Below, piece after piece: positions 12,811 to 17,659 of a stretch of 64,000 nucleotides of DNA (position 1 is the first letter of the stretch; each line of letters begins with the position of its first letter). The notes beneath the pieces were generated by a model. It searched no databases. It was not told where the DNA came from and was given only the letters and a program-made list of their open reading frames with translations. A program made the translations under genes and the position numbers. This stretch comes from Clostridia bacterium (GTDB lineage: Bacteria; Bacillota; Peptococcia; DRI-13; UBA5745): NCBI GenBank assembly GCA_018434325.1, contig JAHDPO010000007.1, positions 186,001-250,000 of the forward strand, in the 5' to 3' direction.

Positions 12811-13138
12811 TAACATAAACTAAAAAGTGCAGAACAAGAATCTGCGGGAACCGGCACAGACCCGGCCCCTTTAGCTAAATGTGCAAAATTTTCTTAGCTT
12901 ACAGCCTCGTCAGGCGATTTTGCGCAAAATTTGAAGTTTAAAGTGTCCAAAACCCACTTAATGAATCCAGTCACTCCTTTTTCACTGTATCTAGCGCATC
13001 AGCCGGATCGATCACCCTATTGTTGAGAGACCGCACACTTTAAACTTGCATTTTTGCTCATTTGGTTCCGCCTTAGTCCCGTGGGCTCTGCAAAGCTGAA
13101 AAATTGAGCAAAGTTGCCCCCCAATGGGGCCTGCGCCG
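12811..13138. other. Gene-free 330-bp stretch with palindromes and a 13-bp inverted repeat
   Basis: I see no credible gene here. It holds a perfect 14-bp palindrome, ATTTTGCGCAAAAT (12917-12930), and a perfect 13-bp inverted repeat, AAGTTTAAAGTGT at 12934-12946 against ACACTTTAAACTT at 13035-13047. The match continues more loosely through a GCAAAA word on the outer side of each arm, so the arms reach about 23 bp. The 88 bases between the arms contain no ribosome site or convincing open frame. It could be a remnant of a small transposable element or a regulatory region. Confidence 0.5.
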
Positions 13139-13219: not shown

Positions 13220-14416
13220 TCAGTTAACTTCCACCTGTACCGTAAGCTCCAGGCCGGTGGCCAGATTCTGAGCGGTAATGCTATAGATGCCGCTATAGAC
13301 CTGATAACCGTCATCATCGGTAAGGTTCCATATTTCATTGATTCTTTGCGTAGCGTCAGGCATTATGGTGATTATCCGGCCAAAAGGACTAAAGCTTTGA
13401 TGCCGGGAATAGCGCCAAACCTCTTGATTATAAACGTTTCTGACCACGATCTCCACCAGCTGGCTGGAGTTGTAGCGGAGACTGACCGGCGCACTGGTGA
13501 TGTTGGTTTTTGACAGCATAATCTGCACCGATTGATTAGAACGGTAAACCCGCCGGTCTGTATAAAGGATCTGGCGTAAGCCATTGGAAACACCGGAGTT
13601 TACCGGCAGGCTGGGAGAGACTTGAGGCTGTTGCCCGCAATATACGCCCAGCAGGTTCCAGGTGCGGCCGTCGACTATGCCGGAAGGATAAATGCCGTTA
13701 TCCTGCTGGAAATTCCGTAAGGACTGCTGCAAACGGGCATTGAATATGCCGTCGTCAGGACCGGTATAGTAACCTTGGGCCCTCAGCAGCTGCTGTACCA
13801 GCACAACCGCCGGACCACGGCTGCCAGGCCGCAAAATGGGACAAAAGTATTCCTGGGGCGGGAAAACAGGCTGCGGCGGTCTGGGCTGCGGCCGGGGAGG
13901 TCTCGGTTGGGGTTGAGGCGGCCTCGGTTGGGGAGGTCTCGGTTGAGGCGGCCTCGGCTGGGGTTGAGGCGGTCTCGGTTGAGGTGGCCTTGGCTGGGGT
14001 TGAGGCGGTCTCGGCTGGGGTTGAGGTGGTCTCGGACCGCCACCATTGCCACCGCCTCCGGGGGGTCTGCCGCCACCATTGCCACCGCCTCCGGGGGGTC
14101 TGCCGCCGCCATTGCCATTGCCTCCGGGAGGTCTGCCATTACCATTGCCACCGCCTCCGGGAGGTCTGCCATTACCATTGCCATTGCCTCCGGGAGGTCT
14201 GCCATTACCATTGCCATTGCCTCCGGGAGGTCTGCCATTGCCGTTGCCATTGCCATTGCCGCCGGGCTCCATAACGGGAATCATAATTATCTGTCCCGCC
14301 ATCAATTCTGCATTTGGGCTAAGGTTATTGGCTGCCGCCAGCTGCTCTGCCGACAATCCCCACATGGCTGCTATAGAAAATAAGGTATCACCCTGTTGGA
14401 CAGTATATTGCCGCAT
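13220..14416 (-). CDS. LysM, Gly/Asn/Pro-repeat, peptidoglycan-binding and BsuPI protein
   Basis: A 398-residue envelope or spore-surface protein without a signal peptide. Domains in order: LysM (1-48, YTVQQGDTLFSIAAMWGLS); a linker of GGNGNGNGRPP-type repeats (about 52-130) and then PQPQPRPP-type repeats (about 130-185); a peptidoglycan-binding type 1 domain (about 190-265, GSRGPAVVLVQQLLRAQGYY); and a C-terminal BsuPI-like domain (about 280-398), related to the Bacillus intracellular proteinase inhibitor. LysM without a signal peptide is common in spore coat and cortex proteins of Clostridia. The start at ATG 14416 follows AGAGGAG, but the ATG lies inside a 16-bp hairpin (see 14402-14469). 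The repetitive linker creates long false open frames on the other strand. Confidence 0.88.
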   Translation of the reverse strand: MRQYTVQQGDTLFSIAAMWGLSAEQLAAANNLSPNAELMAGQIIMIPVMEPGGNGNGNGNGRPPGGNGNGNGRPPGGNGNGNGRPPGGGGNGNGRPPGGNGNGGGRPPGGGGNGGGRPPGGGGNGGGPRPPQPQPRPPQPQPRPPQPRPPQPQPRPPQPRPPQPRPPQPQPRPPRPQPRPPQPVFPPQEYFCPILRPGSRGPAVVLVQQLLRAQGYYTGPDDGIFNARLQQSLRNFQQDNGIYPSGIVDGRTWNLLGVYCGQQPQVSPSLPVNSGVSNGLRQILYTDRRVYRSNQSVQIMLSKTNITSAPVSLRYNSSQLVEIVVRNVYNQEVWRYSRHQSFSPFGRIITIMPDATQRINEIWNLTDDDGYQVYSGIYSITAQNLATGLELTVQVEVN

Positions 14417-14469
14417 ATCATCAACTCCTCTACCCTTACTTCGCGTTTTATCCTATGCGGCAATATACT
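14402..14469 (-). promoter_or_regulatory. 16-bp perfect hairpin trapping the LysM start codon
   Basis: Positions 14402-14417 and 14454-14469 are perfect inverted repeats of 16 bp with a 36-base loop. In the LysM mRNA the 3' arm contains the ATG start (14416-14414) and the loop contains the ribosome site. When folded, the start codon would be paired, so translation should be low. This looks like a translational switch or RNA thermometer-like element. Confidence 0.7.
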
Positions 14470-17613: not shown

Positions 17614-17659
17614 AAAAAAAGTTGGATCCGTCCGGATAAGGGACAGATCCAACTTTTTA
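17614..17659. terminator. Bidirectional terminator after the tautomerase gene
   Basis: GTTGGATC (17621-17628) pairs with GATCCAAC (17646-17653), with an A-run before and a T-run after. An inner TCC/GGA pair extends it. Confidence 0.85.

Follow-up and report, generated by a model that had tools for sequence, protein, structure and literature searches.

Why does the start codon of a LysM-BsuPI gene lie within a long, perfect inverted repeat, and which of the RNAs that might carry the gene would be affected by the resulting hairpin? We examined the locus within a 64-kb window (the whole stretch of DNA analyzed here) and among orthologs from the same order and class. The reading that we favor, at a probability of about 0.72, is that the repeat serves to block translation of read-through mRNA, while RNA begun at the gene's own promoter is free of the upstream arm and is translated. 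The features on which the argument turns are as follows.

13220-14416, minus strand: gene for a LysM - PG_binding_1 - BsuPI protein of 398 aa, with its ATG at 14416
14402-14417, minus strand: downstream arm, TATGCGGCAATATACT, comprising the start codon and codons 2-5 (MRQYT)
14418-14453, minus strand: loop of 36 nt, containing the ribosome site and the predicted transcription start
14425-14431, minus strand: Shine-Dalgarno sequence AGAGGAG, in the loop
about 14442, minus strand: predicted transcription start in the hairpin loop, at the 7th base after the -10 element
14449-14457, minus strand: predicted -10 element CATAGGATA, sigma-K-type (CATANNNTA), 41 nt before the ATG
14454-14469, minus strand: upstream arm, AGTATATTGCCGCATA, encoded in the promoter spacer and the beginning of the -10 element, identical in L002/L040
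14520-15920, minus strand: acyltransferase gene in the same orientation, from which read-through is presumed to come, ending 103 nt before the ATG

The repeat is as the sequence-only reading described it, with perfect 16-bp arms at 14402-14417 and 14454-14469 standing 36 bases apart, and on the minus strand we confirmed that one arm holds the ATG of the LysM protein and the loop its ribosome site. The claim that such a repeat is most unlikely by chance also holds, since no other perfect repeat in the window reaches 14 bp with a loop of 100 nt or less, and none of that length arose in 30 dinucleotide shuffles of the window (mean of 0.17 at 13 bp). The arms reach 23 nt at 87% once mismatches are allowed, and the repeat is present in the minimum-free-energy fold of the coding strand. 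At 13 bp, the window has perfect inverted repeats with loops shorter than 100 nt at just two other places, 12934-13047 and 17616-17658. We rejected a role on the opposite strand, where the repeat also folds but no fitting gene is present, and an intrinsic terminator, as the repeat is absent from the terminator listing and no T run follows the downstream arm.

The upstream arm lies within a putative promoter. The sigma-K consensus consists of AC, about 17 nt, and then CATANNNTA. A B. subtilis compilation gives a two-block layout compatible with AC-N17-CATANNNTA (PMC517825). Outside the window's genus, each of the 15 order-level ortholog sequences, which come from seven other families, has this pattern at -58 to -65 (L003-L016, plus L031 as the second G014 copy), and AC-N16/17-CATANNNTA occurs at -57 to -70 in most class-level orthologs. 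The -10 elements of the orthologs lie at -39 to -46, and the CATAGGATA of the window's genus, at -41, occupies the same place. At the -35 position this genus has TC (14476-14475, by eye) instead of the expected AC, and its sigma-K-type promoter is predicted from position and the -10 element only. No sigma-A promoter was found near the start in the genus block by pattern scan, and none was convincing by eye.

From these positions we infer use of sigma-K and a transcription start inside the hairpin, so that mRNA from this promoter would lack the upstream arm. The sequence-only reading had listed a start inside the repeat, dropping one arm, among its possible modes of control, and the relatives bear this out in that their upstream arm is the spacer and -10 element of a sigma-K-type promoter. 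It had also taken a start between 14417 and 14453 as evidence against control by the hairpin; the predicted start does fall there, and the objection applies to the promoter's own mRNA only. In read-through RNA the hairpin still appears to form, and blocking translation there appears to be its role. We hypothesize that RNA entering from the upstream co-directional gene would carry both arms, fold, and hide the ribosome site and start codon, while a mother-cell (sigma-K-type) promoter in the upstream arm would begin RNA within the hairpin; the latter RNA would be translated, and synthesis of the LysM-BsuPI protein would be confined to times when its own promoter is active.

Folding energies computed for the two predicted transcripts differ in the direction that this proposal calls for. 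When the upstream region is included, the predicted cost of opening the ribosome site and start is 12 to 19 kcal/mol in all order-level sequences except L016 (8.0), versus 4 to 10 kcal/mol from the predicted promoter start; in the window the values are approximately 17 kcal/mol in read-through RNA and 5 in promoter-start RNA. The opening energy of the start region in the window lies above all 200 shuffles of the upstream region, and that of most orthologs lies above their upstream shuffles. When 1,257 genes (1.6 Mb sampled from G009, plus the window) are ranked by arm-dependent sequestration of the start, the window gene comes 9th and the G009 ortholog 26th.

The closest comparison available is with G004, the one other genome of the window's genus from which the gene was recovered (L002/L040); no usable ortholog came from the same-genus genomes G001 to G003 or from the other family members G005 to G008. 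The window and G004 are identical from 68 nt before the ATG to approximately 29 nt inside the gene, arms and loop included, and this unbroken run of approximately 98 nt in L040 covers promoter, loop, and start, with flanking genes at 81 to 85% identity. The block shows strong constraint. The window's own pairing can be compared with this one relative only, in which it is identical, and because both arms are identical the comparison cannot test the pairing itself. Farther upstream, the DNA differs in both length and sequence. The acyltransferase stop lies 530 nt from the LysM ATG in G004 (L040:1988-2517) and 103 nt in the window; the last ∼70 nt of the G004 gap are identical to the window, and the insertion or deletion ends at the promoter block. 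The linker of the LysM protein, which in the window (13869-14272) carries 33-nt tandem repeats of the PGGNGNGNGRP type and proline-rich RPPQPQ repeats, is also of a different length and sequence in L040.

The pairing can be assessed across the order, where, as the sequence-only reading had proposed to check, it is conserved in relatives and kept by matched changes in both arms. The start region, taken as the start codon, codons 2-9, and the bases separating the start codon from the ribosome site, is matched in the order-level orthologs by complementary sequence in the promoter spacer, in the -10 element, and immediately past it. The pairing in relatives thus exceeds the 16-bp arms of the window, running from the promoter spacer through to codons 4-9. 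Examples of matched changes include CACCCGG/CCGGGTG (L008), ACCCGCT/AGCGGGT (L013), CACCCACC with GGTGGGTG (L015), and AAGGC/GCCTT versus AGGGC/GCCCT. In L007 the arm differs: ACACATCTTC, upstream of the -35, pairs with GGAGATGTGT, out of register.

We quantified this covariation in two ways. In alignment A2, 85% of cells are paired and 9 of 21 pairs have changed in both partners, a result that 500 shuffles never matched, although relatedness is still present in the shuffles; the slid controls, which keep the relatedness of the sequences and move the partners by one to three columns, gave pairing of 29 to 55%. RNAalifold alone recovered only the central 11 pairs; we supplied the outer stem manually from folds of individual sequences before testing the result as a named structure. 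Arms from the same species bind at a mean of -24.3 kcal/mol versus -19.5 kcal/mol when swapped between families or genera, and none of 20,000 permutations was as good; the outer segment alone gave P = 0.007 and the inner segment alone P = 0.015 in this test. Sequestration of the start codon, part of the sequence-only proposal of translational control by unfolding, is thus supported by covariation in relatives.

The pattern might nevertheless be a by-product. Partial complementarity comes free, because the CATA of the -10 element inherently complements TATG, and the center of the pairing (CATAT/ATATG, ATA/TAT) is nearly invariant, as would be expected if the promoter and the coding start were each conserved separately. 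Template switching at quasi-palindromes can generate perfect repeats, and the perfect arms of the window could have arisen by such mutation. We consider this account unlikely, as the outer and inner stems, which lie outside the promoter consensus, covary, and most orthologs still exceed the null when the promoter is held fixed and the rest of the upstream region is shuffled. Under this fixed-promoter null, order-level z values range from 1.4 to 7.1, except for L016 (0.7); the weaker results for L008, L009, L011, and L013 (z of 1.4 to 2.0) reflect the contribution of the -10 element itself.

A further argument against a by-product comes from family f11 of the class, in which L017, L019, and L021 attain the same layout with unrelated pairings. 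In L019, CCTTTGTTTC in the promoter spacer pairs with GAAACAAAGG over the ribosome site; a ACATCTCCTC stretch pairs with the ribosome site in L021; and in L017 the pairing is around CTTTGCTTCATAT. That unrelated sequences give the same result points to selection acting on the pairing itself.

An alternative that takes the fold at face value is a sensor, such as a thermometer or a protein- or metabolite-controlled switch, in a normal mRNA that starts upstream of both arms. It would account for the sequestration of the start region and for its conservation and covariation, and the sequence-only reading had named temperature and a protein among possible triggers, neither of which gained support here. 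We regard a sensor as quite improbable. Across the order-level orthologs, without exception, the upstream arm falls on a sigma-K-type promoter of consensus sequence and fixed spacing, and for that reason should be missing from the normal mRNA; in addition, no Rfam family matched at gathering score anywhere in the window. Wholesale replacement of the pairing sequences between families is ill suited to a ligand site, and a perfect 16-bp stem costing ∼17 kcal/mol to open would be very stable for a thermometer. A DNA-level element, either an operator dyad or an invertible segment, is very unlikely despite the overlap of the repeat with the promoter, as the arms, unlike those of an operator, change jointly between species with pairing kept, the space between them is short for an invertible promoter, and the segment has the same orientation in L002.

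A translational block on read-through mRNA presupposes RNA arriving from upstream, and here we infer both that such RNA exists and that the hairpin lowers its translation. A simple scan found no terminator-like site between the acyltransferase stop codon and the promoter in the window, and no strong terminator between the upstream gene and the start in the order-level orthologs except L016. The upstream gene is on the same strand in nearly all orthologs, and in some its stop codon lies 67 nt from the ATG, too close for a terminator to fit ahead of the promoter. L016 has two strong terminators (-21 and -26 kcal/mol) and is the sole order-level ortholog without the hairpin, a single contrast that does not test a link between the two. 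Against the read-through reading, L019 and L021 have both a terminator and the hairpin, L023 and L027 have neither, and the upstream gene is divergent in L031 and L022.

Does the arrangement extend beyond this gene? A hairpin at every sigma-K gene can be rejected, as only 3 of 11 genes with sigma-K-like promoters in the G009 sample fall in the top 34 of the 1,257 and the remaining 8 rank lower. A second predicted sigma-K gene family in this genome, encoding cysteine-rich proteins of 237 to 243 aa that we presume to be spore coat proteins (one member tested had no Pfam match), also has promoter-region arms over the ribosome site. Within the order, roughly half of the members examined show the layout, with different pairings, and approximately 8 of 13 sequences tested exceed the fixed-promoter null at 8/200 or fewer; start codons in this family were assigned automatically, a shared CCCCTCC stretch could belong to the promoter, and the nearest upstream ORFs of one member are divergent. 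We treat the family as a lead to wider occurrence. Its upstream regions (G009:C1:316692 and 3013929; L152, L157, L158, L161, and L168-L172) are often complementary to the ribosome site through differing pairings, such as CCCTCCTT/AAGGAGGG and AGTAGGT/ACCTACT. Two genes of the background sample, G009:C1:3200546 and 3280181, show very strong start sequestration that depends on the upstream arm, and an example from the G009 background genes is AAACACCTC...GAGGTGTTT over the ribosome site. We offer only tentatively, and as a somewhat doubtful generalization, that late mother-cell promoters of this class commonly double as anti-ribosome-site arms, with spacers under selection for complementarity to the start region, such that RNA would be translatable only if begun at the right sigma factor's start.

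Were the block to operate as proposed, the position of the transcription start would determine whether the RNA can be translated, and the timing of expression would be enforced twice. It is also suggested that the spacers of developmental promoters, usually thought to be unconstrained, can carry RNA-level information. The principle is already established for phage T4 and has been proposed for one B. subtilis gene. In T4 gene e (lysozyme) and I-TevI, the early transcripts are longer and fold into a leader hairpin that covers the ribosome site, and their translation is poor; the late promoters are situated in the DNA of the 5' strand, and the RNA that they give has no hairpin and is translated (reviewed in PMC3014915). 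The B. subtilis parallel is sigG (spoIIIG), for which PMC5942855, citing Masuda 1988 and Sun 1991, describes a proposed hairpin block on translation of the spoIIG read-through transcript; the hairpin, of 20 or more bp, cannot form in RNA from the sigG promoter. A hairpin of this kind takes in the ribosome site and/or the start codon, as does the hairpin described here, and we suggest that the LysM-BsuPI hairpin would work in the same way. A promoter within the upstream-arm DNA, as in gene e, is predicted here from the ortholog consensus, with the window matching at the -10 but not the -35; unlike in T4, where a phage late sigma factor is used, a sporulation sigma factor is predicted here, and both sequence and gene are unrelated. 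The function of the gene e hairpin was shown by experiment, whereas ours is deduced from predicted transcripts. The likeness to sigG is that of a sporulation gene behind a co-directional operon (here a co-directional upstream gene), but sigG is a forespore sigma-F/sigma-G gene and the gene described here is of predicted sigma-K type, belongs to another lineage, and has covariation across an order. What the present locus adds to these systems is that covariation support, together with the recurrence of the layout, through different pairing sequences, in a further family of the class.
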